This document shows, one piece after another, positions 33,540 through 51,352 of a stretch of DNA of 64,000 bases. The stretch spans positions 1-64,000 of the forward strand of contig NZ_BCNX01000008.1 in assembly GCF_001571405.1 (NCBI RefSeq). Reading direction: 5' to 3'. Within the stretch, counting starts at the first letter, position 1; each line of letters begins with the position of its first letter. The stretch is from Methanoculleus thermophilus. Its GTDB lineage: Archaea > Halobacteriota > Methanomicrobia > Methanomicrobiales > Methanoculleaceae. Both the position numbers and the translations under genes were made by a program. Under the pieces are notes generated by a model. That model was not told the origin of the DNA, searched no databases, and saw nothing but the letters and a program-made list of their open reading frames with translations.

Positions 33540-33598
33540 GATGTCTCCTCAAGGTGATGGGCGACCTCCAGTGATCGCGGCATCCACACGGGAGAGGT

Positions 33599-33645
33599 CA
33601 ACGTTCCCCTATAAACGATTTCTGTGGCAATCATCTACACATCGG
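33599..33645 (-). promoter_or_regulatory. Shared promoter cassette, copy 2
   Basis: Sense: ATGTGTAGA, 6 nt, CCACAGAAA, TCG, TTTATA, 4 nt, AACGTTGA. Transcribes the operon 33539 to 30706; expected start near 33590. Confidence 0.8.
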
Positions 33646-34066
33646 ACCTTTCCGATCGATTCTGGACCAGGATTAAGCCGTTACGGGCCGGAAACCGGGG
33701 GCGCGCCCGGTCTCGGAGGATGAGCATTACGTTGCCGAGCGCGATCCCGGCGATCTACGAGTCGGCCCCGATCAACTCCGGGGTGGCTGCAGTAATCCCC
33801 GACGAGCCGACTTCGGGCACTGCTATGTCGCGGTTGGTGTGACGGGGGGCAACCCTGGGCGCTTCACCGCCGGGCGTAGTCGATGCGGATTGTGCGGCAG
33901 AAGGCATGATGGGATCTCGCTTGTAGTTCTTCGCGATTGAGGCCACCGTCTCCTCCTCCGGATCCACAAACACCCGGAGATGAGGACAAAAAGAGGATTG
34001 TCTCCACCGCGACCATCCTGCCGGTGCCGGGCCTGAGCACCGCCTCTCTGGGGCGTTCTGATTCGG
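33646..34066. other. Intergenic stretch without a supported gene
   Basis: Some 420 bases between promoter copy 2 and the end of the PD40 propeller gene. Short minus-strand frames (for example FVDPEEETVASIAKNYKRDP near 33960) look protein-like over about 30 residues but switch frame, so a gene remnant is possible. None can be assigned. Confidence 0.35.
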
Positions 34067-35696: not shown

Positions 35697-35930
35697 TCAG
35701 TCCCTCCGCAGGAGAACCGAGTCTTCGATCCCCTTACATCTACACTGCGGCAAATTTTGATCCAGCCGTCTCGACGAGACCCGACCGCGAAGAATATCTC
35801 GATCAACGGCGTCAGGCCCCCTGCTCTTGCCAATTCTTTCACACCCTGCCGTCCGGGTTCGCATGCTCACATGCCCGAGAATTGCATCAGGGCCACCAGG
35901 GAATGCTCTCGTTTTGATGTTTCGGTGCAT
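35697..35930 (-). CDS. Short frame behind structured leader D, possibly frameshifted
   Basis: 77 codons with GGAGGAAAGCAA directly before the ATG and a stop 2 nt before the next gene, so translation is likely. The N-terminus MHRNIKTRAF matches the MNGKVRTRAF of the short gene at 44825-44929. After this point the product is basic and unlike a signal peptide, whereas the +1 frame reads SLVALMQFSGM. A frameshift early in the gene is therefore possible. Confidence 0.4.
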   Translation of the reverse strand: MHRNIKTRAFPGGPDAILGHVSMRTRTAGCERIGKSRGPDAVDRDILRGRVSSRRLDQNLPQCRCKGIEDSVLLRRD

Positions 35931-35933
35931 TTG

Positions 35934-36040
35934 CTTTCCTCCATCGTATTACCCGGAGGCAGACGGAGCATACATCCTCTTTGCCTCCGGGCGTGTGGGG
36001 CTCTATCATCCGGACGTGTGGGGCTCTATCATCCGGGCGT
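35934..36040 (-). ncRNA. Structured leader D (candidate translational switch)
   Basis: On the sense strand CCCGGAGGCA (35991-35982) and TGCCTCCGGG (35961-35952) form a perfect 10-bp stem with a 20-nt loop. The CCTCC of its 3' arm could instead pair with the GGAGG Shine-Dalgarno 12 nt further on. The block before the stem (CGGATGATAGAGCCCC) matches leaders A-C. Lies between promoter copy 3 and the first ORF. Confidence 0.6.
35992..36037. repeat. Tandem 23-bp duplication in leader D
   Basis: Two adjacent 23-base units (each beginning CGTGTGGGGCTCTATCATCC) differ only in the last base. They duplicate the segment just before the leader stem. Confidence 0.85.
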
Positions 36041-36105
36041 CAACCGTGGATGGGGGGACCCCACGCATCACAGGATACTAATTCCAGTATCCACGATGGA
36101 GACGT

Positions 36106-36153
36106 CAACGCTCCTGTATAAACAATTTCTGTGACGCGTATCTACACGTCGGG
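36106..36153 (-). promoter_or_regulatory. Shared promoter cassette, copy 3
   Basis: Sense: ACGTGTAGA, 6 nt, TCACAGAAA, TTG, TTTATA, 4 nt, AGCGTTGA. Transcribes leader D and the operon 35930-34067. Confidence 0.8.
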
Positions 36154-36269
36154 CCTGCCGGATTGAATCTAACTGGGAAAACGCCACACCAAGCCGCGAA
36201 CCAACGCCGCGCAGAGTGACCCGGGGCAAGTGCCATGCCGCCGGGGTCTCATCGCATGGTAGAACTCCT

Positions 36270-36730
36270 TCACGGCCACGCTGTCACAACCAGGTAGTAT
36301 GCCCCTTCGTACTCCAGGTGTGGGTAGACCCATGTCTCCCGGCCGGGGCCGTAGGCGTCCTGGAGCGCCCTGCTCTCCGCGTAGGAGACGTTGGTTCCCC
36401 CGATGACACGCTGGCTCCGATCTCCCCACTCCCACGCCGAAGGGTTGCGCTCCTTACCACGGATGACCGCATCGAGCGCCGGATGCTGCTCGAAGTCCTG
36501 CTCGGTCAGGGGGACGACCACGTTCTCTCCTGGTGTCGTCTGCTCCATGACGTAGAGCATCGGCTGTTCCCCAGAACTCTCGTGAGCGTAGAGGGTGAGG
36601 GCGTCGGCGAGCATGAGGCCGAGCGCGACCGCGACGATGCCGGCAAGACCGCAGGTGACGATTATCCCCGCCGTTTTGAGCCGGTTGCCGGGTTTATGAC
36701 CTTCTTCAATTCCTGCACCTCTTCAAGCAT
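36270..36730 (-). pseudogene. Membrane-anchored paralogue of the upstream gene, with a frameshift
   Basis: An ATG one base after the upstream stop reads MLEEVQELKKVINPATG and then hits a stop. The next frame supplies the missing span (LKTAGIIVTCGLAGIVAVAL) and continues to 36270. One base is missing near 36680. The C-terminal domain (PLTEQDFEQHPALDAVIRG; VYPHLEYEGAYYLVV) is clearly paralogous to the 36732-37133 product, so the repaired protein would be a tandem duplicate of about 153 residues. Confidence 0.6.
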
Positions 36731-36731
36731 C

Positions 36732-37133
36732 CTAATGGATCAGAACACGGGTAGCATAGTATACTCCGTCGTACTCGAGGATCGGCGCATTCGCCGTATA
36801 CACACCAAACGACTCGGTGAGCGCGAGGCATTCGGCCCCCGTCATCGGGACCGGCGTGGATGCCGGCACGTTGGGGTTGCTGCCGGCCTCCCGGATCGCG
36901 GTGGCAAGAACCGGGTGCTGCTGCAGGTCCCGGTCGGTCAGACGGATGACGGATGCGTTCTGCAGACCCTCTTCCCCGACCACCTCCACAACCAACATTT
37001 GCGGCGGACCGTCGACTCCCGTGATCAGGGTGACGAAGGTCGTAACTCCGAACATGACCGCCGCGACGAGGAGGACGACGCCGATGAACGCAACGATTCC
37101 TATGATGATCAGGCGCTTTTTGTCAGGTTCCAT
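36732..37133 (-). CDS. Single-span membrane protein, family with 'QHPxLxxAIR' domain
   Basis: 133 residues from the ATG at 37133 (GGGAGGAGATTGC upstream). An in-frame ATG at 37178 would add MCGICPACVNMGGDC but lies before the Shine-Dalgarno. One N-terminal span (IIIGIVAFIGVVLLVAAVMF) is followed by an extracytoplasmic domain with RLTDRDLQQHPVLATAIREA and PILEYDGVYYATR. First gene behind promoter copy 4; the next gene is its paralogue. Unknown function. Confidence 0.7.
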   Translation of the reverse strand: MEPDKKRLIIIGIVAFIGVVLLVAAVMFGVTTFVTLITGVDGPPQMLVVEVVGEEGLQNASVIRLTDRDLQQHPVLATAIREAGSNPNVPASTPVPMTGAECLALTESFGVYTANAPILEYDGVYYATRVLIH

Positions 37134-37213
37134 GCAATCTCCTCCCATATTGACGCAGGCCGGACAGATCCCGCACATCGGGGCACCGATTCCGGCAGCT
37201 ATCGGTGAGAGCT

Positions 37214-37260
37214 CGACGTCCCTCTATAAACGATTTCTGTCACGATCATCTACACGTCGG
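37214..37260 (-). promoter_or_regulatory. Shared promoter cassette, copy 4
   Basis: Sense: ACGTGTAGA, 6 nt, TGACAGAAA, TCG, TTTATA, 4 nt, GACGTCGA. Drives the paralogous pair 37133-36270. Confidence 0.8.
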
Positions 37261-37340
37261 GCCGCCTCAAGCCTGTTTGCTCCCGGCGCAAGGCGCGGCG
37301 GGCGAAACGAGGGTATGAAGGGATGATAAAAGAGGGGTGT

Positions 37341-39722
37341 TCAGAGGTTGTGCGCGGGGACGCACCGGTTCTTCCCCGCATACGGCACGACCGGGCCGTG
37401 GAGTTCAATCCCGAGCGCCTCCCGGAGGACGTCCTCGATCGTCTCCACGGTCACGAACGTAAGATCGCTGCGGACATCCTCGGGGACGTCCTCGAGATCC
37501 CGCTCGTTCTCCCGCGGGAGGATGACCGTCTTGATCCCGGCCCGGTGGGCCGCAAGGACCTTCTCCTTGATCCCGCCGACGGGGAGCACCGCGCCGGAGA
37601 GGGTCACCTCGCCGGTCATCGCGAGCGTCGGGTCGACGGCTCTCCCGGTCACGAGGGAGGCGAGGGCCGTCAGGATGGTCACCCCCGCCGACGGCCCGTC
37701 CTTCGGGGTCGCCCCCGCCGGGACGTGGATGTGGATGTCGCTTGCGAAGAAGTCGAACCCTGTCGTGATGGTCGCGAGCCGTGAGCGGATCAGGCTGAGC
37801 GCAATCTGGGCCGACTCCTTCATCACGTCGCCGAGCTGCCCCGTCAGCGTCAGTTTCCCTTTGCCGGGCATGAACGTCCCCTCGATGAAGAGGATGTCCC
37901 CGCCGACCGGCGTCCAGGCCAGGCCCGTGACGACGCCGGGCGGGTTCTCCTTCCTCGCCATGTCCGGCCGGACGGTCTCCCGGCCGAGGATCTCGGGGAG
38001 CATATCGGCCGTCACGACGACCGGGAGATCGACGCCTCCCGAGACGACCTTCGCCGAGACGTACCGGGCAATCCGGGCAAGCTCCTTTTTGAGCGTCCGG
38101 ACACCCGCTTCCCGGGTGTAGCGGTCGATGATCGCCGCGATGGCCCCGTCCTCGATCCGGAGATGATCCGCGGTCAGGCCGTGCTCCTCGAGGGTCTCCG
38201 GGATGAGATGCTCCTTTGCAATCGCAAACTTCTCTTTCTTCGTGTAGCCCGAGATCTCGATGACCTCCATCCGGTCGAGGAGCGGCGCCGGGATCGTCGA
38301 GAGACTGTTTGCGGTCGCGATGAAGAAGACGTTCGAGAGATCGTAGGGGACCTCCAGGTAGTGGTCCGAGAACGTGCTGTTCTGCTCGGGATCGAGGACC
38401 TCGAGCAGAGCGCTTGCCGGATCGCCGGAGTAGGAGACGGCGAGCTTGTCGACCTCGTCGAGGACGAAGACCGGGTTCAGCGTCCCGGCACGCTTCATCC
38501 CCTGGATGATCCGGCCGGGGAGCGACCCGACGTAGGTCCGCCGGTGCCCGCGGATCTCCGCCTCGTCCTTGACGCCGCCGAGGCTGATCCGGACGTACTT
38601 CCGGCCCAGCGCGTCCGCGATGCTCCGCCCGAGGCTCGTCTTCCCCGTCCCGGGCGGGCCCACGAGGAGGAGGATCGAGCCCTGCTTCTCCTCCTTGAGC
38701 TTCATGACCGCGAGGTGCTGGATGATCCGCTCCTTAACCTTCTCAAGGCCGTAGTGGTTGCTCTCGAGCACCCGGCGGGCCTCCTCGATATCGATGCTCT
38801 TCTTCTCGACCGTCCAGGGGAGATCGAGCAGGAGGTCGAGGTAGTTCCGGATCCCCTGGCTCTCGTGGTGCTGGCTCCCGCCCGACTCGAGTTTCCTCAG
38901 TTCGGCAAGAGCCTTCTTGCGGACCTCCTCGGGCATCGTCGAGCGCTCGATCCGCTCCCGGTAGCCTTCCTCGCCGGACGAGCCGTCGCCCCCGTTGAGT
39001 TCCTCCTGGATCACCCGGAGCTGCTCGCGGAGCATCGCTTCGCGGTTCGCTTTTCCGATCTTCTCGGAGGCCTTTCTCGCCACCTCGATCCGGAGGTTGA
39101 TGCTCTCGCTGAGGTCCACCAGGAGCCGGAGGAAGGCCGTATAGCGCTCCCTGACGGAGACGGTCTCGAGGAGAGACTGCTTCGCGGCAACCTCCACCGG
39201 CATGAAGGGCACGACGAACGCCATGATCTGGTCGACGGACCCCATCCTGTCGACGGGCCGGGTGAACTGCTCGGAGCCCTGGAAGTTGGCGCTGATGTCG
39301 TGGACGGCTGCTTTGATCTCTGCGAGCATCTTTTCTCGGGTCTCCTCGTCGATATCCATGATGTCCGGGAGGGGTTCGAAGGCGGCGTAGAACTGCCCGT
39401 CCCTCTCCGAGACGGCCACGGCCTTCACCCGGCGGACCGCCCGGGCAAAGACCAGGTAGCCGTCGTCCGCAGGCTGGGCGTGCGTGACCATGAGGAGGTT
39501 GCCGGTCGTGTACAGCCCCTCGGCCGGGATCTCTGCAGGCGGGGTGCCGCCCTTGACGGTCAGGCCGACGGCGGAGGCCGATCCGTCGCTCTTCATGGCG
39601 GCGATCAGCAGCTCGCCCAGGGCCGTATCGACCTGGAACTTCGTCCGCGTCTCCGGGTAGACCACGGTCTCGAAGAGCGGTATGACAATCGTCTCGTTGC
39701 TGTCAGCGTGTGGTGAGTGCAT
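37341..39722 (-). CDS. lon: ATP-dependent protease Lon, bacterial-type LonA
   Basis: 793 residues from the ATG at 39722, which has GGAG 5 nt upstream. The N-terminal substrate-binding domain is about 1-205, with Walker A VGPPGTGKTSLGRSI (about 355), Walker B VFVLDEVDKL and the catalytic Ser/Lys dyad in PKDGPSAGV and GGIKEKVLAAHRAGIK. No membrane span is present, so this is the soluble bacterial LonA and not the membrane-bound archaeal LonB. That suggests old transfer from bacteria, as known in other methanogens. An operator-like site shared with the upstream marR gene precedes it. Confidence 0.97.
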   Translation of the reverse strand: MHSPHADSNETIVIPLFETVVYPETRTKFQVDTALGELLIAAMKSDGSASAVGLTVKGGTPPAEIPAEGLYTTGNLLMVTHAQPADDGYLVFARAVRRVKAVAVSERDGQFYAAFEPLPDIMDIDEETREKMLAEIKAAVHDISANFQGSEQFTRPVDRMGSVDQIMAFVVPFMPVEVAAKQSLLETVSVRERYTAFLRLLVDLSESINLRIEVARKASEKIGKANREAMLREQLRVIQEELNGGDGSSGEEGYRERIERSTMPEEVRKKALAELRKLESGGSQHHESQGIRNYLDLLLDLPWTVEKKSIDIEEARRVLESNHYGLEKVKERIIQHLAVMKLKEEKQGSILLLVGPPGTGKTSLGRSIADALGRKYVRISLGGVKDEAEIRGHRRTYVGSLPGRIIQGMKRAGTLNPVFVLDEVDKLAVSYSGDPASALLEVLDPEQNSTFSDHYLEVPYDLSNVFFIATANSLSTIPAPLLDRMEVIEISGYTKKEKFAIAKEHLIPETLEEHGLTADHLRIEDGAIAAIIDRYTREAGVRTLKKELARIARYVSAKVVSGGVDLPVVVTADMLPEILGRETVRPDMARKENPPGVVTGLAWTPVGGDILFIEGTFMPGKGKLTLTGQLGDVMKESAQIALSLIRSRLATITTGFDFFASDIHIHVPAGATPKDGPSAGVTILTALASLVTGRAVDPTLAMTGEVTLSGAVLPVGGIKEKVLAAHRAGIKTVILPRENERDLEDVPEDVRSDLTFVTVETIEDVLREALGIELHGPVVPYAGKNRCVPAHNL

Positions 39723-39736
39723 GGTGACTCCAATCA

Positions 39737-39761
39737 TTTAGTTTGAATTTACCTAACAATT
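39737..39761. promoter_or_regulatory. Operator-like site at lon, matching the marR upstream site
   Basis: TTAGTTTG, 2 nt, TT, 1 nt, ACCTAAC occurs here and at 40209-40229 in the same arrangement (plus strand). It lies between a TATA-like GTAATTTTTTG and the lon start, so a bound repressor would block initiation. Confidence 0.6.
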
Positions 39762-39776
39762 CGTCCGGGCAAAAAA

Positions 39777-40196
39777 TTACCTGACCTTCCGGAGGATCTC
39801 GATCAAGAGATCCACCTCGTTCTCATCGAGTGCCTGCACAATCCTCTCGATCATACGATGGAGCGCATTCTGCTCGGCGTTTGCTATCATCCGCCCCTTC
39901 TCGGTCAGGCGGATGTAGGCCATCCTCCCGTCATCGGGGCACTTCTGCCGATAGGCGCACTCCATCCGGACGAACCTATCGACCATCTCCGTGACGGTGG
40001 GTTTCGAGTTGTTGGTGATCTCGGCGAGTTTGCTGAACGTCAGGTCGTGATGCTTCTCGATGACTTTCAGGTAGGCGATCTGTTTTGCCGTCAGATTGTT
40101 GAGCCCGCATTCGGCGGCGATCTCGCGGGTGCATTCGTTCTTGATAGCGATCAGGCGATCAAAGACCTCGAAGAGATGCTCAACTCTCGCCGTCAT
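39777..40196 (-). CDS. MarR-family transcriptional regulator
   Basis: 139 residues with the winged-helix core at about 30-100 (LTFSKLAEITNNSKPTVTEM; wing: CPDDGRMAYIRLTEKG). MarR proteins are usually dimeric repressors released by small ligands. The palindrome GGTTAG/CTAACC just upstream of its own start and a matching site upstream of lon point to autoregulation and control of lon. Confidence 0.9.
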   Translation of the reverse strand: MTARVEHLFEVFDRLIAIKNECTREIAAECGLNNLTAKQIAYLKVIEKHHDLTFSKLAEITNNSKPTVTEMVDRFVRMECAYRQKCPDDGRMAYIRLTEKGRMIANAEQNALHRMIERIVQALDENEVDLLIEILRKVR

Positions 40197-40207
40197 GGTT
40201 GATGCAA

Positions 40208-40232
40208 GTTAGTTTGGTTAGACCTAACCTTA
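40208..40232. promoter_or_regulatory. MarR operator-like palindrome upstream of marR
   Basis: GGTTAG, 2 nt, CTAACC is a perfect palindrome within GTTAGTTTGGTTAGACCTAA. It covers the stretch from the TATA-like TTTAAGG to the expected transcription start of marR. Confidence 0.65.
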
Positions 40233-40274
40233 AAGGTTGTGATCGGGGGAGGGTGCACTCTGGAAGCATACGTC

Positions 40275-40967
40275 TCAGTTGATGAGGGTGTTCCCCTCCA
40301 GGGGGCGGAAGGGTTCGCGAGAACTGTCTCGGTGATAGATCCTTGGTTCTACGGGGATGATCCCGGTCTTTCCCGGCGGGATCCGCTCCATGATCGAGAT
40401 GTGGTAGTCGGGCCTCCCCTCGCCGGATATGGTGAAGTTGATGCTGACCAGGATGGGCTCAGGATCGTCCGATACGGGGCGGAGCGAATCCGGGACGATG
40501 ATGTATGGAGAGGCATTCCCCGCTTTCGAGAGGCGTGAGAGTCCCGGCACAAACCCGCTCGCCGCTATCTCCTCACGCGAGACCTCTCTTAAGAAACCCC
40601 CTGAGTGAGCGGCGGAGACATCCGTGAGATCCGCACCGGGGAGACGCAGTCCAAGCATCTCCCCATTCTCTGTCCTAACCGGGAGAGTCGTACAGTTGTC
40701 AGAGGTCATCCACCGGAGGTCCTCTCCGGAAAAGACCGGTGAACCGCCGACTGCAGGGAGGGGAACGACAAACTCCGTGATCGGATCTCCCCGGTAGCCG
40801 GACAGCCCGGTAACGGAGACGGCGTATGAGTAATCCCAGGAATGCTCCGACATCATCCGGGTCTGATGATAGTGGACGAGAATGTTTCCGCCGATGGCGA
40901 CAATCGCGATGGCGAGAAGCGAGACAACAACGACTTTGGCGAGAAAGGAAATTATCGAGGGAGCCAT
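40275..40967 (-). CDS. Membrane-anchored protein, paralogous family member 1
   Basis: 230 residues with an N-terminal span (VVVVSLLAIAIVAIGGNILV) and an extracytoplasmic beta domain. The landmarks YAVSVTGLSGYRGDPITEF, PVFSGEDLRWM, ADLTDVSAAHSG and SIMERIPPGKTGIIPVEPR recur in the 41043 and 42100 products. Follows its paralogue by 75 nt, behind promoter copy 5. Unknown function, probably cell envelope. Confidence 0.7.
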   Translation of the reverse strand: MAPSIISFLAKVVVVSLLAIAIVAIGGNILVHYHQTRMMSEHSWDYSYAVSVTGLSGYRGDPITEFVVPLPAVGGSPVFSGEDLRWMTSDNCTTLPVRTENGEMLGLRLPGADLTDVSAAHSGGFLREVSREEIAASGFVPGLSRLSKAGNASPYIIVPDSLRPVSDDPEPILVSINFTISGEGRPDYHISIMERIPPGKTGIIPVEPRIYHRDSSREPFRPLEGNTLIN

Positions 40968-41042
40968 CTTCCATTCACTTCCTGATCCGCAGGACTGCGG
41001 CGCTCACGATCCACCATGAGATTCTCCGCACGGGACCGTCCA

Positions 41043-41717
41043 TCAAAGGTGGATACCCCCGGGAATGACGTGGTATTCGGCCGGGACCGGGACGAAGCCG
41101 GACTCTGTGCTCGAAACGGCCGTATTCACCGTCGCCGTCCAGGTATCCTCCTCTATCAGGTATTTCATGCCCCCGCCGCCCCGGTACTCGAGGTCAAACG
41201 AGATCGATGTGGCGTTCTCCGGCGGCGAGACGAAGCCGTCGAGGAAGACGACGGTGGTGTAGGTCCCGCCCGAGCTCCGGGCGAACTCGGCGACGCTCAC
41301 GTTGTCCGGGGTCGCGAGGGCCGGTACGAGTAGCCGGGGTTCTTCTTTCGTCTCGAACTCGCCGGTCGGTCTGGAGATATCCTGCGCGTAGTCCTCCGTC
41401 GTCGTGAACGCGATCATCTTCCCGTACGGCGTCTCCCGGATCGCCGTCCTCCACCCGGCGGGCTGGAGAACGCTGGACGACTCGAAGATCACCAGCTCGC
41501 CCTCCGCGTTCGCCGGAACCGGGATCATGACCGTGGCGGTGCCGTTCACGGCGAGATCGGACAGACCGGTGATCTTGATCATGTAGGAGTCGTTCGGCAT
41601 GGTCGTCTCGACGAACGCGGGAAGAAGAAGGAGCAGGAAGATCACCGCGGCGAGGATGGTGACCGCTATCAGCAGGTTCAGTAAGGTTTTTTTGGTATTG
41701 GTACGCTGTTCGCCCAT
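41043..41717 (-). CDS. Membrane-anchored protein, paralogous family member 2
   Basis: 224 residues from the ATG at 41717; a GTG six codons earlier is in frame. N-terminal span LLIAVTILAAVIFLLLLLPA, then the family pattern SYMIKITGLSDLAVNG, ELVIFES, GWRTAIRETPYGKMIAFTTT. First gene behind promoter copy 5; its leader can form a CCGGA-AGG/CCTCCGG stem, a weak version of leaders A-D. Confidence 0.7.
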   Translation of the reverse strand: MGEQRTNTKKTLLNLLIAVTILAAVIFLLLLLPAFVETTMPNDSYMIKITGLSDLAVNGTATVMIPVPANAEGELVIFESSSVLQPAGWRTAIRETPYGKMIAFTTTEDYAQDISRPTGEFETKEEPRLLVPALATPDNVSVAEFARSSGGTYTTVVFLDGFVSPPENATSISFDLEYRGGGGMKYLIEEDTWTATVNTAVSSTESGFVPVPAEYHVIPGGIHL

Positions 41718-41773
41718 CTCCCCACCATCACCCACCGGAGGGGCCCCGCCTTCCGGGATCTATGCATGAGAAG

Positions 41774-41820
41774 TCAACGTCCCCCTATAAACGATTTCTG
41801 TCACGATCCTCTACACGTTG
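41774..41820 (-). promoter_or_regulatory. Shared promoter cassette, copy 5
   Basis: Sense: ACGTGTAGA, 6 nt, TGACAGAAA, TCG, TTTATA, 4 nt, GACGTTGA. Drives 41717-40275. Confidence 0.8.
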
Positions 41821-42099
41821 AGGCATTCTGATCATTTTGCCCCCGGAAATGCGCCTCCGCCGATCCGGGAGACTCGCTGTCCCGGCCGATGGAAAACTTG
41901 CGCTGTCAAGCGAACAGCCGGCATCAGGGGCAAAGGCTACCAGAAATAAACGATTCTGGCATTCTCCGGATTCACGCACGCTCATGCCTCTTCAAGGGCT
42001 CAAGAAGATTTCCGGTTGCGGGACCTGGGCATCCGGAAAAGGGATTTGAAAGCCCACCGGCGGTCCCTGAACGCAAATTTGCTTTTCACTTCGCATGCA
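41821..42099. other. Intergenic spacer, nothing recognised
   Basis: Between the end of the third paralogue and promoter copy 5. Plus-strand frames here lack Shine-Dalgarno sequences, domains and neighbours in the same direction. Confidence 0.4.
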
Positions 42100-42807
42100 T
42101 TAGAACTCGCTTATCGGAACCCAATTTCCACCACCCTCGTACCTCGCAGCATGAACGTTTACCGGGATCGCTCCGCGAATGTCAGGAGGAACATGCTCCA
42201 GAATACTCACCCGGAACGTATCTCCCGATATAGAATGATGGATTCCCTCAGATACGGTTAACTCCAGGCTAACGGCAACATCTGTTGCATTCGCATTCAG
42301 AGGCACAAGATCCTTCGGGAGGAAGAGGACCGATGTGTATCCGGACCCATCCTGCGTGCTGGAATTCCATCCTGCAGAGGAGTTGAGACCGTCACGCATG
42401 AGCGGGGAGAGAGACTCATTCTGAGGGTCTGTCAGCCTTAGCTCACCGGGATCAAAATTTTTGAAAAATTCTGCGTGGACATCAGTAAGATTCGTACCGA
42501 CCGATTGAAAAGCAAGCATTTTGCCATAGGGGGTTACGACAATCACCGATTTCCAGTTGCCGAATTGCCTGTACTGGAGTTCTTCTTCCGAAAAAACCAG
42601 CTCCCCGTCCCTCATAGGCATCGGCACGATAATATCGGTGACCGGTTCGTCGATATAGTTGGAAAGGCCGCCTATTGTGACCGTATATCTGTAATAGCCC
42701 GGGTTTGAGTTAATCCAGGCAACTCCGAACAGGGTAAGGAAGAACATAAGAATGACGGTAACTGCAGCCGCCAAAAATAGAATTTTGAGTTTAGTTAAGG
42801 ATGCCAT
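42100..42807 (-). CDS. Membrane-anchored protein, paralogous family member 3
   Basis: 235 residues. N-terminal span ILFLAAAVTVILMFFLTLFG; the family landmarks YYRYTVTIGGLSNYIDEPV, ELVFSEEELQY, TPYGKMLAFQSVGTNLTDV and SILEHVPPDIRGAIPVN align with the 40275 and 41043 proteins. GGAG precedes the ATG. It lies behind leader B and a degenerate promoter, downstream of the protease operon. Confidence 0.7.
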   Translation of the reverse strand: MASLTKLKILFLAAAVTVILMFFLTLFGVAWINSNPGYYRYTVTIGGLSNYIDEPVTDIIVPMPMRDGELVFSEEELQYRQFGNWKSVIVVTPYGKMLAFQSVGTNLTDVHAEFFKNFDPGELRLTDPQNESLSPLMRDGLNSSAGWNSSTQDGSGYTSVLFLPKDLVPLNANATDVAVSLELTVSEGIHHSISGDTFRVSILEHVPPDIRGAIPVNVHAARYEGGGNWVPISEF

Positions 42808-42867
42808 CGTGTCTGTGCTCCATGGGTCGATTCAGGGACGGGTAACATAGTACTTCCTTCAGTCTCT

Positions 42868-42945
42868 TTCTTCGGAGGCAGGAGAGGCATTCCTTCAAAC
42901 ATGGGAAGAGCACACGTTCCCATTGCCTCCGGGCATGCGGGATGT
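42868..42945 (-). ncRNA. Structured leader B (candidate translational switch)
   Basis: Sense: TCCCGCATGCCCGGAGGC leads to a 45-nt loop and GCCTCCG; arms are 42931-42925 and 42879-42873. Inside the loop ATGGGAA/TTCCCAT can form a 7-bp hairpin. Block order and spacing match leader A although much of the loop differs. Unlike A, C and D it lacks a nearby GGAGG, so the switch half may be degenerate. Confidence 0.5.
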
Positions 42946-43123
42946 TCACCCGGACGTTTGGCAAACCGGCGGGGTGAACTTCCGCACCGGTGCAGACGAC
43001 GCCCGCGGTACCCACGATTGTCCACTTGGACATTTCAAGATAAACCGTTTATGGGACAAACACCATTTTGAAGCCTACCTCTATAGGAAAAAACAGGCTG
43101 CGGCCCTGGGGATTGTGACCTCC

Positions 43124-43672
43124 TCAAGTTGCACCGCATAGACGCATCCACCTTGAGAGATCCGTTTGAGAATCAAGGATCAGCTCCGGCGGAGAGATGA
43201 ATACCGTGAACTTCACCGGGATATCCTCAATTCCCATCTCCCTTGCCCGCTCATCAAGCATCGTATACACTGCCTCTATCGAAGAAACATTCTTTGGCGG
43301 AGGCGGGCCGTTCCAGATACTCACCCGGAGATACCCGTCAATGTCGTAGCCGAAACCGATGAGAGAGCCGTTGGGATAGAGGTAGCGTTCCCGTATCTGA
43401 TCTCCCATGGCGGCGGTGAAGTACTCCAGGTTTGCGCCCTTCCCGCCCTTCGAGATGGGGAGCCCTCCGAGCGTGACGATGACGGGCTCCCTCTTGTTCA
43501 GGCTGGCTTTGAGGTGACCTATGTCCGGGTCGGTGAAGACTGGTTGAAGCTGTCCGGATACCCCGGCAGATGTTGCCGACCTCTGATCCCGGAAGTCTTC
43601 AAAGAGGTACACTCCTGTAGAGAGGCTAAATACAAGGACGAAAAATAAAATTGGGGCTGAAAATTTACTCAT
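43124..43672 (-). CDS. Anchored protein homologous to the prodomain of the adjacent protease
   Basis: 182 residues with an N-terminal span (APILFFVLVFSLSTGVYLF). Residues 50-165 align with the N-terminal domain of the S1-type protease just upstream: YLYPNGSLIGFGYDIDGYLR against YLYPDGPIIGFGYDIEGYVG, and AVYTMLDERAREMGIEDIPV against EIYTMLSEEAKKSGVGDIPI. No protease domain follows. Starts 12 nt after the protease gene. Likely an inhibitor or chaperone of the protease. Confidence 0.72.
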   Translation of the reverse strand: MSKFSAPILFFVLVFSLSTGVYLFEDFRDQRSATSAGVSGQLQPVFTDPDIGHLKASLNKREPVIVTLGGLPISKGGKGANLEYFTAAMGDQIRERYLYPNGSLIGFGYDIDGYLRVSIWNGPPPPKNVSSIEAVYTMLDERAREMGIEDIPVKFTVFISPPELILDSQTDLSRWMRLCGAT

Positions 43673-43684
43673 GTCTATGCATCC

Positions 43685-44815
43685 TCAACCTGTTAGCGGA
43701 AGAACGCCTAGTGCTGCCTGCACACCTGATACCGGTGAAAAGTACTCTTCACCGTTGAAATTTCCAGAGTGTATCCCTACAACAATTCTGTCATGATCAG
43801 GTTCAACATGGTAAACTGGTGCTCCACTATCCCCGTTTGCGGCACTATAAGAAACAAAGTACTGATCGTATAAATATTTCTTTGTATCGCCGTTAAATAC
43901 AATATCCTTCCTTATGGTTGCTCCTGATGTTGTGCCCGTAGTAATTCCTGATTTGTAAACGGGCAACCCTATTCCACAGTCAGTATAGTAACCTTTCACG
44001 GTTTGTTGTACCCCTCCACTACCATAGATTTTTGCCGCAACATTACTGTAGGGAACCCAAGCTGCATCTGCATATGAACTCTGACTTGGCCAATGGGTAT
44101 CAGCAGCCACTGTACCAACGGCATTTGACGCACTTACACTTGGCTGGTATATTGTTTCCCCGACACCGTCAGAACAGTGTCCAGCAATGACATAGCCAAG
44201 GGTTCCAGCAGCGTTTCGCGCAGCCCAACCAATTGTTGCGGTTCCTGTTGAACTGCCTAAGACTGCCTGCATCTGCACCCCCCCAATCACGGGACGGAAC
44301 CTGTCACTTGCGCTGTGAAGTACTAGACTGTCAGGATCGACAGATCTAACCTTGATGGGAATATCTCCGACTCCCGATTTTTTTGCTTCTTCACTCAGCA
44401 TTGTGTATATCTCGTTCACTGCAATATCAGTTTTATCCTCAGAATATCCCTCCACAACACCGATTCCGACATACCCCTCAATGTCATACCCAAAACCGAT
44501 GATGGGACCATCCGGGTAAAGGTAGGGTTTTACGGAGTCGAACATGTCGCTTGTGAGGTTATCTAGGAAATTATACCATGTACGTCGATGCTGTGTATCT
44601 TTGAATTCCGGTAGAGTGCCGCGTATATCAATGACGCTTTCTTTTGATTTGAGGTACTCAACGGCTGCGGTGTACTCGTCACTTGTAAGTTCTGCACGTT
44701 CAACAGTCATGCTACACTCATCCGCAACTGGGTTCGCAGAAGCAAATCCCAGACAAACCGATACCGTCAGCATGAGTATAACAAACGCTGACAGAAATTG
44801 CTGTTTTCTCTCCAT
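43685..44815 (-). CDS. Secreted chymotrypsin-fold (S1, streptogrisin-like) serine protease
   Basis: 376 residues: signal peptide (LSAFVILMLTVSVCLGFASA), an N-terminal prodomain (about 30-165) and a protease domain. The catalytic triad is visible as VIAGHCSDG (His), SYADAAWVPYS (Asp) and AANGDSGAPVY (Ser). S1 proteases of the alpha-lytic/streptogrisin kind are made with a folding prodomain, which fits. Unusual in methanogens; secreted or surface proteolysis is expected. Second gene behind promoter copy 6 and leader A. Confidence 0.85.
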   Translation of the reverse strand: MERKQQFLSAFVILMLTVSVCLGFASANPVADECSMTVERAELTSDEYTAAVEYLKSKESVIDIRGTLPEFKDTQHRRTWYNFLDNLTSDMFDSVKPYLYPDGPIIGFGYDIEGYVGIGVVEGYSEDKTDIAVNEIYTMLSEEAKKSGVGDIPIKVRSVDPDSLVLHSASDRFRPVIGGVQMQAVLGSSTGTATIGWAARNAAGTLGYVIAGHCSDGVGETIYQPSVSASNAVGTVAADTHWPSQSSYADAAWVPYSNVAAKIYGSGGVQQTVKGYYTDCGIGLPVYKSGITTGTTSGATIRKDIVFNGDTKKYLYDQYFVSYSAANGDSGAPVYHVEPDHDRIVVGIHSGNFNGEEYFSPVSGVQAALGVLPLTG

Positions 44816-44824
44816 TTCTTCACC

Positions 44825-44929
44825 TCAATCAGGATTGGCATCCATAGCCACCGCCGGCACCACACCCACACTCACAAACAACAGCGCCAGGAGCAGGGAG
44901 AATGCCCGCGTTCTGACTTTTCCATTCAT
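44825..44929 (-). CDS. Short exported peptide gene behind leader A
   Basis: 34 residues with a strong GGAGGAAAGAGC before the ATG. MNGKVRTRAFSLLLALLFVS then VGVVPAVAM is a complete signal peptide, leaving only a few residues (DANPD). It may be a leader or coupling peptide for the protease gene 9 nt downstream, or a secreted micropeptide. Confidence 0.55.
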   Translation of the reverse strand: MNGKVRTRAFSLLLALLFVSVGVVPAVAMDANPD

Positions 44930-45035
44930 GCTCTTTCCTCCGATAATTTTCCGGAGGCGAGCGAGGCATACTTTCAAGTACACAAGGCACGTACACTCTT
45001 TTGCCTCCGGGCATGCGGGACGTTCACCCATCCGA
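44930..45035 (-). ncRNA. Structured leader A (candidate translational switch)
   Basis: Sense: TCCCGCATGCCCGGAGGC, a 44-nt loop, then GCCTCCGG (arms 45010-45003 and 44958-44951; 8 bp). The same CCTCCG can pair with CGGAGG 9 nt downstream, which is the Shine-Dalgarno of the short gene. The two hairpins are mutually exclusive. Confidence 0.65.
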
Positions 45036-45102
45036 TTCGCTCTTGGCCGGGTGGACCCCCCGCGCTTCGGGATACCGGCTCCGGTACCCACGTGTGAGAA
45101 AT

Positions 45103-45150
45103 CAACGTTCTTCTATAAACGATTTCTGTCGATCCTCTCTACACGTTGAG
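45103..45150 (-). promoter_or_regulatory. Shared promoter cassette, copy 6
   Basis: Sense: ACGTGTAGA, 6 nt, CGACAGAAA, TCG, TTTATA, 4 nt, AACGTTGA. Drives leader A and the protease operon. Confidence 0.8.
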
Positions 45151-45382
45151 ATAGTTGGATCTATTTTGCTTCCGAAAACATCCCACAGTCGACCGGGAAC
45201 TCGCACTGTGCCGACCGAAAATAAACCCACGCGGCAAAGGAAAAATCGATTCGGATATCGTATCCACGTCACAGACACCCATTTTGCAAGAAGGCCCGGC
45301 ACCAGCGCTCACCCTGCGCGACAGGCTCTCTCCGCCATTGTTCGACACCGATTCCCGGGCGGCCAGTCTGCCCCGGACCGAG

Positions 45383-45420
45383 GAACGTGTAGAGAGGTTT
45401 GAGAGAAAACTTAAGTGAAG
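45383..45420 (+). promoter_or_regulatory. Shared promoter cassette, copy 7 (weaker)
   Basis: ACGTGTAGA, 6 nt, TGAGAGAAA, ACT, then TAAGTG in the TATA position; the downstream AACGTTGA block is missing. Drives 45445 and probably the membrane regulator gene. Confidence 0.65.
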
Positions 45421-45444
45421 GTATTTGAGAAGTTCCCCGGTGGT

Positions 45445-45882
45445 ATGATGACATACAACCGCATCTTTGCACTGGTGCTTGCACTGGTCCTGATGGCGCC
45501 GCCGGCTTTTGCCGGGAGCAGCGAATGTGGTGTGAACACCGCTTCGGAAGAGGAGAACCCGGCAGGCGACGCCGGAATTCGCGCCATTTACCTCATAGAG
45601 CAGGGAGAGACAAACCATCACAGCGCGTATGTGCCTCCAGGGAGCTCAACGCTGTTTGTGAATCTAAACTGGTTTATCCCCCAGCAGTCGTTGACGCTGA
45701 AGATCATCTCGCCGAGCGGAAGCACCTACGCCTACTATCACGATACCGATCTAGATGGTGATAAAAACGCACAGATCCGCACATCGATCTCCTCTCCGGA
45801 GGCTGGAACATGGCGATTCCAGGTTTACGGGGAAACCGTGCGGGATGCCCAGGATTATTCCTTTGAAGCCGCGGCGGAATAA
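45445..45882 (+). CDS. Secreted protein with PPC-like beta-sandwich
   Basis: 145 residues from the ATG at 45445: a signal peptide (IFALVLALVLMAPPAFA), then a domain with LTLKIISPSGSTYAYYHDTD and SPEAGTWRFQVYGETV. These are the strand pattern of pre-peptidase C-terminal (PPC)/P-type domains often joined to secreted proteases. A secreted protease is encoded across the intergenic gap. The regulator gene begins 40 nt downstream. Confidence 0.72.
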   Translation: MMTYNRIFALVLALVLMAPPAFAGSSECGVNTASEEENPAGDAGIRAIYLIEQGETNHHSAYVPPGSSTLFVNLNWFIPQQSLTLKIISPSGSTYAYYHDTDLDGDKNAQIRTSISSPEAGTWRFQVYGETVRDAQDYSFEAAAE

Positions 45883-45922
45883 ATCACATCTTTTTTATGT
45901 TCCCGGGAACCTGATCCTCTTA

Positions 45923-46657
45923 ATGCCGAATCGACCCGTCCTCGCGAGGCTCGCGCTGCTCCTCATCGTGCTCATGTTACTATTTACCCCGGGGAGCGCT
46001 GCTGGCACTGGACCGAGCGAACGGGAGTTTCCGGAGATGATACCAGACGATCCGATCCCTGAGTACATCTGGAACATACCGCTGAAGTTAGTCCTGCTCG
46101 ACTTCGTCTTCATGAACGCCCCCTTGCTCCTCCTCCCGGTGCAGTTCCTCATATCGGTGTTCGCATGGCTCTGCCTCGGCCACAGGAGGATCTCCCGGAA
46201 GAACGCTCTCGAACACGACACCCGTCGTGCGGCGTACCTCTGCATCCGGGAGAACCCCGGGATCAACCACGCTTCCCTCTCACACAGGCTTGGGATTAAC
46301 ATTGGAACGCTCCGGTACCACCTTGCAACCCTCTGCGAGACCGGACAGATAGTAACTGAGCGCGATCACGGGCAGTTGCGGTACCATGCGAACGGCAGGG
46401 CGGCCCGTGAAGGAGAGGGCTATCCCATCAACGGGACACGGAGAGAGATCCTCGATCTCATCACGCAGAATCCAGGGATAGCGCGAAAAGATGTCGCATC
46501 CGCGCTCGGGATCTCCGGTGCATCGGTGGCCTGGCATACGGGGCTGCTCATCCGGGACGGTGCTGTATGGAGCGAGAGAGACGGAAGGATGGTGCGGTAT
46601 TTCCTCCGCCGGGATGTTCAATCCCGGCAAAACAGAGGCGCAGACGCAACCGGTTAG
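45923..46657 (+). CDS. Membrane-anchored regulator with two winged-helix domains
   Basis: 244 residues from the ATG at 45923. A signal-like span (LALLLIVLMLLFTPGSAAG), a short outside loop and a second span (VLLDFVFMNAPLLLLPVQFL into FAWLCLG) precede two tandem winged helices: ENPGINHASLSHRLGINIGT and QNPGIARKDVASALGISGAS. This is the archaeal membrane HTH design, able to sense envelope state and bind DNA. It is the only DNA-binding gene inside the cassette-bearing region, which makes it a candidate regulator of the shared promoters. Confidence 0.8.
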   Translation: MPNRPVLARLALLLIVLMLLFTPGSAAGTGPSEREFPEMIPDDPIPEYIWNIPLKLVLLDFVFMNAPLLLLPVQFLISVFAWLCLGHRRISRKNALEHDTRRAAYLCIRENPGINHASLSHRLGINIGTLRYHLATLCETGQIVTERDHGQLRYHANGRAAREGEGYPINGTRREILDLITQNPGIARKDVASALGISGASVAWHTGLLIRDGAVWSERDGRMVRYFLRRDVQSRQNRGADATG

Positions 46658-46715
46658 GTCACCCGGGGGCGGTTGGGCCGGAGACGATGAACGAGTCCCG
46701 GTTCTCGACGCTCAC

Positions 46716-47399
46716 CTATCCGTAGGCTACGGACTCGGCCGCTGCGAGATCCTGCCGGGTGAACGCAATAAGAACCTCTTCTGGAGATGGCGGGGATCCC
46801 GGGCTCCGGTGGGGAGTGATCGTGATAGTGTACCAGCGCGCGTCCGGGCCGAACGTCACTTCTCTCACCGGGCGGAATACCCCATCCGAGACCTCATAGA
46901 GCCTCCCCCGGGTCTCATTGTAGTGATCCCCGTACGCGTTCGGGCTCAAAAGAAGTGTCATACCCTGCTCCCGGAAGGGGATATCCTCCAGAGCGATGGC
47001 GTCGACCTCCCGTAAGAGGGCGAGGGGGTGCACCCCCTGCACGGAGTAGGCAAGTTTCTGCGATTTGGCGGATACGATTCCGCCCGGCCCCGCATACGCC
47101 TCGTACGCGTGCTGCTCGCCGTCCTTATCGCCGTAGAAGTAGAGCCATATCACCCGAGCCGCGCCATCCCCGGCGAGATCGACCTCCAGCTTCCGCAGCA
47201 CAGCCGACTCGTTCTCAACGCCGGTGCTCTCGACGGCGATCTCCCAGAGGTCCAGGATGGCCGGATGGTATGCCGGGGACTCAAGATGGGTGATATTCTC
47301 GATGCGGGTGACGTCCGGGGCCTCCGGTAAGATGAAGAAGTGCATGCAGGCGTAGACAGCTATTACTCCGACGATAACGGCAAGGATCGGTCGTCTCAT
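46716..47399 (-). CDS. Single-span membrane-anchored protein of unknown function
   Basis: 227 residues: an N-terminal span (ILAVIVGVIAVYACMHFFIL), then an extracytoplasmic domain with ARVIWLYFYGDKDGEQHAYE, YSVQGVHPLALLREVDAIAL and ARWYTITITPH. Composition and topology match the other envelope proteins here, but no promoter cassette is found upstream; it lies between two plus-strand units. Not recognised. Confidence 0.65.
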   Translation of the reverse strand: MRRPILAVIVGVIAVYACMHFFILPEAPDVTRIENITHLESPAYHPAILDLWEIAVESTGVENESAVLRKLEVDLAGDGAARVIWLYFYGDKDGEQHAYEAYAGPGGIVSAKSQKLAYSVQGVHPLALLREVDAIALEDIPFREQGMTLLLSPNAYGDHYNETRGRLYEVSDGVFRPVREVTFGPDARWYTITITPHRSPGSPPSPEEVLIAFTRQDLAAAESVAYG

Positions 47400-47536
47400 G
47401 GTAGTTCCGGGCCGATGGAACCGGCGTGGTTAAAGTCAGTATGGGACCGGCCGGGCTTGAAGTTTCCGAAAAGTGACCGGTCCGGAGTATCGTTGGTTTA
47501 CCACGGCCACTGGTCGAATTCACTCCCCTCACGCCC

Positions 47537-47580
47537 CGACGTGTAGAGGAATGTGAGAGAAAAGGTATATGGAGTAACGA
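47537..47580 (+). promoter_or_regulatory. Shared promoter cassette, copy 8
   Basis: ACGTGTAGA, 6 nt, TGAGAGAAA, AGG, TATATG, 4 nt, AACGATCC. It precedes the ABC-2 permease by a leader of about 165 nt that holds no convincing ORF. Confidence 0.72.
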
Positions 47581-47770
47581 TCCAGTCTCAAGACGGCAAC
47601 ACCCGTGGAAGTGCATCTGAGTAACCCTTGCCTGTTCCGGGCGGCGGAAAAACCTCGGTTGTCACTTAAGGGGCGATACCGTGTATAATCGCGGGCCTGC
47701 GGTACTCTTGCGACCACGGACGGAGAACGAGCATGGAGATAGAAGCATATACACTGACCGGTGATAACAC

Positions 47771-48739
47771 ATGACGGCGGAACGGGTCTTCACCGTGGCC
47801 CAAAAAGAGTTCACTGACCAGATAACGGGCTGGCGGTTTCTGGTGATCCTCGCCCTCTTCCTCGCCATCGCCCTGGTGGGGACGTACAGCGGGGTCGTGA
47901 GCTACGAGAGAGAACTGGATAGATACTCGGAGCAATTGGCCGCGATGGATAACCAGAATGACGGACCGGCCGGGATGATGCCCGCAAAACCGCCAGTTGA
48001 GGGCGTTTACTCCTCAATGTTCCTCACGCTGATCTCCTACGGGGGGCTCCTTGCCATCGCCGTCGGGTCCGGCCTGGTCTCCGGGGAGAAGGAGTCCCGG
48101 TCGCTCAAAAGCCTGCTCTCCCACCCGGTCTACCGCGACGAGGTCATCAACGGCAAGGCGCTCGGGGGCGTCGCGCTGCTCGCCCTCGTCGTCGGGAGCG
48201 TGCTCGCTATCTCCACCGCGCTCCTCCTTGTCTTCTCGATCGTGCCCGCCGCCGGCGATCTCTGGATGATCCTGACCTATGCGGGCGTCATCCTCCTCTT
48301 CCTCGTCACGTTCTTCTCCATCGCGCTCGCCCTCTCCACCCTCTGCCGGGAGAGCGGCAGCGCCCTGCTCCTCTCGGTGGTCGTCTTCATCCTCCTCGTC
48401 TTCCTGTTCCCCTACGCCACCACGCATATCGGCATGGCGCTCATGATGGAGGAGCCCGACCCGACGGCATACGGCGGGGACATCTCGTCGGAAGAATTCC
48501 AGGCAGCGTTCACGGCATATTACGGGCAATTCGACCTGATCCAGAGCATCGGAAACCTCGCATCACCGCAGATGGCGACCAACGCCCTCATCCAGGGGAT
48601 CGCCAACGCCCCGACATCGGGGGCGACCCTTGAGGATACGCTCGGCGAGATATGGTCGAGCGTGGTGGCGCTGATCCTCTACCCCACCGTCTTCTTCGCC
48701 GTCGCGTACACGCGGTTCATGCGGATGGACATCCGGTGA
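47771..48739 (+). CDS. ABC-2 type (NosY-like) permease without a nearby ATPase
   Basis: 322 residues with six spans. VFTVAQKEFTDQITGWRFLV at the N-terminus and SGEKESRSLKSLLSHPVYRD (about 100-119), the coupling-helix region of NosY/ABC-2 permeases, are visible. The normal partner ATPase gene is absent on either side, so it works with a distant ATPase. Driven by promoter copy 8. Possible roles are export or membrane protein handling. Confidence 0.85.
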   Translation: MTAERVFTVAQKEFTDQITGWRFLVILALFLAIALVGTYSGVVSYERELDRYSEQLAAMDNQNDGPAGMMPAKPPVEGVYSSMFLTLISYGGLLAIAVGSGLVSGEKESRSLKSLLSHPVYRDEVINGKALGGVALLALVVGSVLAISTALLLVFSIVPAAGDLWMILTYAGVILLFLVTFFSIALALSTLCRESGSALLLSVVVFILLVFLFPYATTHIGMALMMEEPDPTAYGGDISSEEFQAAFTAYYGQFDLIQSIGNLASPQMATNALIQGIANAPTSGATLEDTLGEIWSSVVALILYPTVFFAVAYTRFMRMDIR

Positions 48740-48861
48740 CCACGCCCGGGAGGGAGCGGGACCGAGTATGGAGCCCCGGCACTCCCGGTGCCAGCCGGGA
48801 CCCTCTCCGGTTCCGTGGGCCGTGCAGGATGTATCCAGCCTTCCGCTTTCCGAAGAAGACA

Positions 48862-48906
48862 GCGAACATGTAGAGAGAAGTGAGAGAAAAGGTAAATATT
48901 CCAACG
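48862..48906 (+). promoter_or_regulatory. Shared promoter cassette, copy 9
   Basis: ACATGTAGA, 6 nt, TGAGAGAAA, AGG, TAAATA, 4 nt, AACGTAGA. Drives leader C and 49087. Confidence 0.7.
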
Positions 48907-48980
48907 TAGAGGTAGCAGTGCGGATGCCGGCATCAGGCATTCGCATAAGTCGCGGGGCCACACATCCGCGGTTCACGACA

Positions 48981-49080
48981 GGATGATGCACCCCGCATGC
49001 CCGGAGGCGAAAAGAAGGTTATTATTACCTCTACTTATAGGTACGTCCTTTCCCCCTCCGGCACCGTAACAAGGAGGAAG
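48981..49080 (+). ncRNA. Structured leader C (candidate translational switch)
   Basis: CCCCGCATGCCCGGAGGC begins the element; CCGGAGG (49001-49007) pairs with CCTCCGG (49055-49061) across a 47-nt loop. CCTCC can alternatively pair with the GGAGG Shine-Dalgarno 13 nt downstream (AAGGAGGAAGC). Inside the loop ACCTCTA/TATAGGT can form a further hairpin. Confidence 0.65.
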
Positions 49081-49086
49081 CAGAAG

Positions 49087-49593
49087 ATGAAAACAAGAAA
49101 CGGATCTATCACGGCCTGGGCGGTACTGGCACTGGTTGTACTGGCTTCCGTCGGTGCGGTTTCCGCAGCCCAGGCTCAAAGTCAGGAGAGCATTGAAGTC
49201 GGAACCGAGGATACCGGCGACATCGGAATTCTGGCCGTAGAAGAACTGGGAGTCATGTATACAGACGGCGACGCCGATACGGCAAGCGTGACGACGTACG
49301 GACCCATAACCGTTCCGCCCGGGTACAACACCTTCAAAGCGAAGTACTACAACTCCAATGACGAAGACAACGACGGGCAGGGAGCACTCTACCGTCTGAC
49401 GGTCTACGATGCTCAGGGTATGGCGCACACTAAACAAATAAAGGTGGACTGGGCGACCAGCGGGACAATCGAAGTGAGTTTTGATTCGCGGGGCACTGGT
49501 GATGCCTACTACGAACTCTGGTGCGAGACGCACGATTGGCTCGACACAACGAAAGCAACGGACATAGGCACCGGGGACCTCGACTATGTCTGA
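49087..49593 (+). CDS. Secreted protein, first of a paralogous pair
   Basis: 168 residues from the ATG at 49087 (AAGGAGGAAGCAGAAG upstream); a longer in-frame start lies inside the leader stem and is rejected. Signal peptide AWAVLALVVLASVGAVSA; then a beta domain with TTYGPITVPPGYNTFKAKYY and YRLTVYDAQGMAHTKQIKV. The latter matches FTLTVWNPAGVPHSTTREF in the next product. Unknown function. Confidence 0.75.
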   Translation: MKTRNGSITAWAVLALVVLASVGAVSAAQAQSQESIEVGTEDTGDIGILAVEELGVMYTDGDADTASVTTYGPITVPPGYNTFKAKYYNSNDEDNDGQGALYRLTVYDAQGMAHTKQIKVDWATSGTIEVSFDSRGTGDAYYELWCETHDWLDTTKATDIGTGDLDYV

Positions 49594-50135: not shown

Positions 50136-50283
50136 TACCCGCGACTTCCAGGCCACCCATTGATAAACAGCGAACTTTGCCCGTCGGGACGAATCGGATG
50201 GCCGTGGGACTATGTGTCCCGGCCCCCACATAGTGTCAGAGCGATAACGGGCACTGGCTGCTCCTCTTCAACCGACTGAGACC

Positions 50284-50330
50284 CGACGTGTAGACAATCA
50301 TGACAGAGAACATTTATAGGGTGACGTTGA
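50284..50330 (+). promoter_or_regulatory. Shared promoter cassette, copy 10
   Basis: ACGTGTAGA, 6 nt, TGACAGAGA, ACA, TTTATA, 4 nt, GACGTTGA. Drives 50409 and 50970. Confidence 0.8.
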
Positions 50331-50408
50331 CCACTCATCGATTAATACCGGAACCCAGGCCCGGCAAACGGCGGGGCGGGTGAGTACCGTCGTCCGGGAG
50401 AAGAGAAC

Positions 50409-51170: not shown

Positions 51171-51249
51171 CCGTTCTGCCGTGGAGGAAGATCCGCATCG
51201 AGATATCCCTTCTACTGCTCCTCCGGGAACGAAACGGATTGACGCGCCC

Positions 51250-51297
51250 CGACGTGTAGACGATTGTGACAGAAATCGTTTATACAAGAACGTTGAC
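51250..51297 (+). promoter_or_regulatory. Shared promoter cassette, copy 11
   Basis: ACGTGTAGA, 6 nt, TGACAGAAA, TCG, TTTATA, 4 nt, AACGTTGA; the closest match to the consensus. Expected transcription start near 51307, giving a 46-nt leader to the gene at 51353. Confidence 0.85.
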
Positions 51298-51352
51298 CTC
51301 TCCCGCAGAGTTACAGAACACGGGAGCCGAACCGTGTCGAGAACGGTGCAGT

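Follow-up and report, generated by a model that had tools for sequence, protein, structure and literature searches.

A structured 5' leader with two mutually exclusive helices precedes secreted-protein genes of methanogens and probably belongs to an undescribed family of cis-acting RNAs

Introduction

Within a 64,000-nt stretch of the Methanoculleus thermophilus genome (NZ_BCNX01000008.1, positions 1 to 64,000; hereafter the window), four similar leaders stand in front of open reading frames, raising the question of whether they are structured RNAs that govern translation and, if so, of what kind. The window sits on contig C8 of a 2.22 Mb genome. The original prediction, made from sequence alone, was that one arm of a conserved hairpin pairs either with its upstream partner or with the Shine-Dalgarno (SD) sequence, in the layout of a translational riboswitch or thermosensor. 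A 2024 study of M. mazei notes that predicted riboswitches are few in archaea and that validated ones are fewer still (PMC11549558).

Leader copies and anatomy

Leaders A to D were found at the predicted places, with A, B and D on the reverse strand and C on the forward strand (Table 1), each preceded by a TATA box, ending in an SD and start codon, and carrying the arm GCCCGGAGGC. The predicted spacing in three copies was also recovered, CCTCC preceding a GGAGG SD by 11 nt in A, 13 nt in C, and 12 nt in D; the SD of leader B is GAAGG, which accounts for a mismatch in its SD-pairing helix. A blastn search with the whole of leader A returned two strong copies elsewhere in the same genome (E 1e-27 and 2e-26) and weaker ones, so chance matches are excluded for the four window leaders.

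From 5' to 3', the layout comprises a TATA promoter, P1 (in some copies), P2, P3, an A/G-rich linker, the SD, and the start codon; the place of the leader downstream of an archaeal TATA promoter and ahead of a start codon is established. P1, a 5' hairpin whose sequence varies, is seen in copies of the window's class and apparently lies outside the transcript in Methanosarcina. P2 is a long hairpin of three sequence types. P3 is a long hairpin with basal arms CCCGGAGGC and GCCTCCGGG, inner helices, and a conserved UACUU apical loop, which is a candidate ligand site only. The 3' arm of P3 doubles as an anti-SD and, measured start to start, lies 17-19 nt from the SD in 77 of 99 copies. Reading of the sequences showed the P3-SD linkers to be A/G-rich, with no terminator-like U-runs as expected of a transcription attenuator. 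The P2 region of leader D contains a 23-nt tandem duplication (35986-36031, repeat D18), and several head-to-tail GCGGAGGCTCAAAACAGCGTTCGCAAAA units stand just 5' of the leader at L148, upstream of 251, in the P1 region.

Table 1. Coordinates of leaders, their parts, neighbouring ORFs and promoters (window positions unless a contig is named).
Feature	Position	Strand	Basis
Leader A, core P2-P3-SD-ATG	44927..45065	-	CM match 125 bits
Leader A, P3 5' arm GCCCGGAGGC	45003..45012	-
Leader A, P3 3' arm = anti-SD GCCTCCGGA	44950..44958	-	sequence; paired with SD in MFE of A
Leader A, SD GGAGG	44937..44941	-	sequence
Leader A, shared promoter CGTGTAGA..GACAGAAA..GTTTATA and P1 hairpin region	45077..45150	-	repeat family D1; TATA box by reading sequence
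34-aa ORF behind leader A (shared signal peptide only, then stop)	44825..44929	-	translation
Secreted streptogrisin-like serine protease ORF downstream of leader A	43685..44815	-	phmmer to Streptogrisin B, 1.5e-6
Leader B	42846..42987	-	CM match 132 bits
Leader B, P3 arm GCCCGGAGGC	42925-42934	-
Leader B, anti-SD	42873-42879	-
Leader B, SD GAAGG	42856-42860	-
Membrane-anchored protein ORF, separated from leader B by a 17-aa ORF	42100..42807	-
Leader C	48950..49089	+	41 bits with R1 (C outside R1 training set); 67 bits with R2
Leader C, P3 arm GCCCGGAGGC	48999-49008	+
Leader C, anti-SD CCTCC	49055-49059	+
Leader C, SD	49073-49077	+
168-aa secreted protein behind leader C	49087..49593	+
Leader D	35928..36066	-	61 bits with R1 (D outside R1 training set)
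Leader D, P3 arm GCCCGGAGGC	35983-35992	-
Leader D, anti-SD	35951-35960	-
Leader D, SD	35938-35942	-
Broken signal-peptide ORF behind leader D	35697..35930	-	translation
Leader E	C6:283562-283701		extent by model
Leader F	C6:286648-286787		extent by model
Leader H	C10:66143-66280		extent by model
Leader I (3' arm decayed)	C6:223605-223744		extent by model
Shared promoter family	33576-33673, 36083-36180, 37191-37288, 41752-41849, 45080-45177, 50282-50336, 51248-51302

Distribution of the leader

The covariance modelling and genome search proposed with the original prediction were carried out with a model (R1) built from copies A, B, E, F, and H, which recovered both of the window copies left out of it. 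Of the 35 genomes searched within the genus, 31 had R1 matches, with up to 24 copies in one genome, as did 55 of 232 genomes of the class. A broader covariance model, R2, extended this to 61 of the 232 class genomes, representing 18 of 40 class genera, and to 52 of 394 genomes of the phylum, many of them Methanosarcina-like ones of another class. In total, at least 218 copies were read. A plasmid collection gave no leader match.

Covariation of the two helices

The 3' arm of P3 is shared by two mutually exclusive pairings, one with the 5' arm (P3) and one with the SD (P4), as predicted. P4 occurs in many sequence variants, including CCTCC/GGAGG, CCTCG/CGAGG (L195, L196, L214, L229, L232, L235, and L244), CCTCT/AGAGG (L206, L238, and L243), CCTCTT/AAGAGG (L233 and L250), CCTCA/TGAGG (L231), CTCCTAG/CTAGGAG (L198, L199, and L252), CTCCTG/CAGGAG (many copies), and GTCTCC/GGAGAC (L219, L221, and L258). 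When the SD strings were redealt among all copies, the observed P4 pairing was reached in 0 of 2000 swaps, and in 4 of 2000 once identical combinations of anti-SD and SD had been removed; the phylum-wide swap test for P3 likewise gave 0 of 2000. Such swaps leave the relatedness of the copies in, for which a count on a tree is a partial remedy only: at pair 5 of P4, which alone reached a z of 7.3, about 13 compensatory double changes stood against 19 breaks on a tree built without those positions. The hairpins within the loop that the original prediction had called compensating also exist and covary (swap z -4.8).

Over the whole structure, the alignment of 40 divergent copies (A7) showed double changes in 31 of 40 pairs, with 220 cells as compared with 92 in shuffles, a value reached in 0 of 500 shuffles, and the signal collapsed when the partner was slid by one base. 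In a further alignment (A3), double changes were seen in 21 of 40 pairs. In both alignments the signal exceeded every slid version and all, or nearly all, of the shuffles, but the alignments had been fitted to a model, which biases these counts in its favour. Within the genus, swaps gave z values of +1.2 for P3, -1.3 for P4, and -2.3 for P4 in type II; at this level the comparison carries little information since most positions of both helices are nearly invariant, and covariation of P4 is weak. A tree-null G-test on the genus-level alignment yielded no significant pair because leader subtypes dominate that alignment. The duplex-energy swap test for P2 was uninformative, probably owing to runs of G and C.

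The alternative is not preserved without exception. At least 5 bp of P3 and at least 4 of P4 are both possible in 153 of 186 copies, P4 has 4 bp or fewer in about 10% of copies, and some SD changes lack compensation. Another possible general OFF partner for the 5' arm, the first GCCTC (UAUGCCUC), is paired with it in the predicted MFE folds of A and H but was rejected, since the swap test lent no support (z +2) and the motif is not conserved in Methanosarcina-like copies. Taken across the phylum, both helices covary, contradicting the outcome that had been named as counting against the original prediction, and an RNA family with P2, P3, and the alternative helix P4 is established on comparative sequence grounds.

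Predicted energies and temperature

Among 66 copies, the predicted energy of P4 minus that of P3 averaged +2.6 kcal/mol (sd 4.2), P4 being the less stable on average; P3 is the favoured state in most copies, and the two energies are close enough for either state to prevail. At 37 C, the predicted accessibility of the SD spanned 0.04-0.88 (10th to 90th percentile), and among the predicted folds the SD was blocked in A and H and open in E and F. The median accessibility rose modestly, from 0.71 at 37 C to 0.80 at 55 C.

Promoters associated with the leader

The leader had been said to accompany shared promoters, which holds in part. The shared family (ACGTGTAGA..TGACAGAAA..GTTTATA) has many copies in the window, some of them without a leader, which makes promoter and leader separate modules; at least three promoter types precede the leader. 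A winged-helix regulator (HVO_0163-type with HTH_24; window 45755-46657) adjoins the leader genes and is a possible controller of the shared promoters.

Genes behind the leader

An ORF of at least 85 codons lies directly behind 110 of 138 copies. The N-terminus is signal-peptide-like in 107 of these 110 ORFs and in 32 of 33 of a distant set (A6), giving 139 of 143 together; these N-termini are alike, reading MNGKIGMRAFSxLLAVLLVSVxxVPAVSA in the genus and MIANRKIGIGALFAAMLLVGMVFVPAVSG in one Methanosarcina-like genome. Clustering of the 110 mature parts gave 28 groups with no detectable mutual similarity, which establishes the association of the leader with signal-peptide genes whose mature parts are unrelated. 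Cargo scoring above Pfam cut-offs included Peptidase_C39_2, transglutaminase-like, and DUF6345 domains, the distant set contributed matrixin (M10) members, and reprolysin-like and phospholipase-C-like matches fell below cut-offs. The same protein group was found behind differing leader types and promoters. This reassortment of promoter, leader type, and mature protein suggests that the leader and signal peptide form a portable module.

In the window, leader C alone is directly followed by an intact secreted product, a homologue of which also follows a leader at L220. Leader A is followed by the shared signal peptide and a stop, with a streptogrisin-like protease further downstream, and a similar protease stands directly behind the leader at L229. 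The membrane-anchored protein ORF downstream of leader B had no Pfam match. A copy of the protease ORF, 100% identical, was present on contig JAAYAB010000313.1 (L029), filed under a Bacillota MAG, and is likely the result of contamination or misbinning. Cys-rich secreted proteins with a halocin-C8-like layout were observed in methanogens at L276, L281, L089, L090, L208, and L015. TIGR04449 was detected in L090 only and below threshold (20.9 against 24 bits), and no halocin-C8 domain was found in L089 and five further proteins; with the domain match sub-threshold or absent, the label 'halocin-C8-like' derives from architecture and Cys-rich C-termini. PADLOC assigned none of the ten secreted proteins examined to a defence family, and a search of viral contigs found no relative of one cargo protein.

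Relationship to sRNA162 and MM2442

In Methanosarcina-like genomes, matches to RF02792 (sRNA162) run antisense to copies of the leader, sharing about 54-58 nt with its core. None above 78 bits lies on the leader strand, the matches being on the opposite strand with partial overlap. RF02792 matched in only two Methanosarcinaceae-like genera among 16 genomes searched, was above cut-off in g87 genomes (same phylum, outside the class), and matched two control genomes only, one of them Methanosarcina acetivorans; it had no match in the window or in tested related loci of the window's class. In M. mazei, the 5' end of sRNA162 binds in vitro to the initial portion of the MM2442 5' UTR; this UTR is 184 nt long up to the annotated start and shares 65 nt with sRNA162, no RBS was found by the authors, and the reported effect of sRNA162 on the MM2442 transcript is slight (PMC3510493).

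At L276 (1637-1764 and 1767-2540), a TTG start with the SD AAGAGGTG was observed in frame, 42 nt upstream of an internal ATG. The leader is present there, and translation from the TTG would yield a complete signal peptide. A transcript start set 184 nt before the internal ATG would fall about 11 nt upstream of P2 and give an overlap of 65 nt, which fits the published arrangement; L276 is a likely MM2442-type locus and may be the MM2442 locus itself. The absence of a reported RBS may thus reflect a true start at the TTG with its SD.

Comparison with known RNA classes

A cmscan of the leader against Rfam 15 gave nothing at the gathering score. In E-value mode there were sub-threshold matches only, the sole riboswitch being AdoCbl-II (E 0.49), outside the leader core. 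Nowhere in the open literature that was searched is the leader described as a family. With its covarying structure and fixed place between promoter and start codon, it has the features of a structured cis-regulatory RNA. Like translational riboswitches of the anti-SD/anti-anti-SD type, it has mutually exclusive helices of which one hides the SD (on comparative evidence only), a structured domain just upstream, and many copies in one regulon; unlike them, it is archaeal, its regulon consists of diverse secreted proteins and not of a pathway, it has no Rfam match, and its ligand is only hypothetical. RNA thermometers such as ROSE and fourU also hold the SD within a hairpin, whereas the leader has the competing helix P3, GC-rich stems, and little predicted response. 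Autogenous leaders of the ribosomal-protein type are likewise structured 5' UTRs governing access to the start, but the genes controlled here have no common protein product. The MM2442 5' UTR is alike in that, at loci bearing sRNA162, leader and sRNA are on opposite strands and overlap by about 65 nt up to the inferred start, as published (PMC3510493); sRNA162 itself, in contrast, is an antisense RNA and not the leader, which spreads phylogenetically far beyond it.

Alternative explanations

One reading, that the leaders have no RNA function and are only an upstream segment common to the members of a recombining gene family, would account for the reassortment of promoter, leader type, and mature protein and for the several broken ORFs downstream; it is contradicted by covariation in most pairs of the structure that no shuffle reproduced and that collapsed on a slide of one base, and is given almost no credence. 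Part of the original prediction was the naming of the layout as riboswitch or thermosensor. The structured leader and the either-or pairing stand, by covariation, while the names fare less well, since the regulated genes point to no ligand and SD accessibility changes little between 37 and 55 C. A thermosensor is unlikely, and an RNA thermometer acting by melting of P4 is highly improbable: an SD-blocking hairpin does exist, but the predicted rise in median accessibility is small, the stems are long and GC-rich, and classical thermometers have no competing helix.

Two further explanations accept a functional RNA. The leader could be constitutive, P2 and P3 protecting the mRNA or fixing its level of translation with no switching; the predicted preference for P3 in most copies, and a regulon united by secretion and not by one pathway, are in keeping with this, but a purely constitutive hairpin needs no compensatory change in P4, so that this explanation appears rather improbable. 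It could also be mainly a platform for cis-antisense RNAs of the sRNA162 kind, which, by pairing with P2, would determine translation or stability, with the choice between P3 and P4 as the read-out. The antisense RF02792 matches and the in vitro binding of sRNA162 to the MM2442 5' UTR argue for such a role; the confinement of RF02792 to two Methanosarcinaceae-like genera among the 16 genomes searched, the lack of a match in the window or in the tested related loci of its class, and the slight effect on the MM2442 transcript argue against it as a general explanation, which we consider unlikely.

Proposed mechanism and significance

Judged from sequence comparison, the leaders probably form an undescribed family of cis-acting RNAs controlling translation of a secreted-protein regulon in methanogens. 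As compensating mutations support both the fold that hides the SD and the fold that frees it, the leader is probably an on/off switch. Formation of P3 would lock its 3' arm and leave the SD free (ON), and opening of P3 would allow the arm to capture the SD in P4 (OFF). A binder of the UACUU loop, of P2, or of the P3 stem, whether a small molecule or a protein, may set the balance between the two states; in Methanosarcina an antisense RNA could play this part. Leader and signal peptide would move as a module before many differing secreted proteins.

Few classes of cis-regulatory RNA are documented in archaea, and this family spans two methanogen classes. It marks a coherent secreted set comprising metallo-, cysteine-, and serine peptidases, transglutaminase-like proteins, and halocin-C8-like proteins, provides a new frame for sRNA162 and MM2442, and is directly testable in genetically tractable Methanosarcina. 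More tentatively, the leader may represent a hitherto unrecognised archaeal translational switch of two methanogen classes, possibly a new riboswitch class, which would combine with the shared signal peptide into a portable control module for the methanogen secretome, peptidases and bacteriocin-like cargo included; in Methanosarcina, cis-antisense RNAs would add a further layer.
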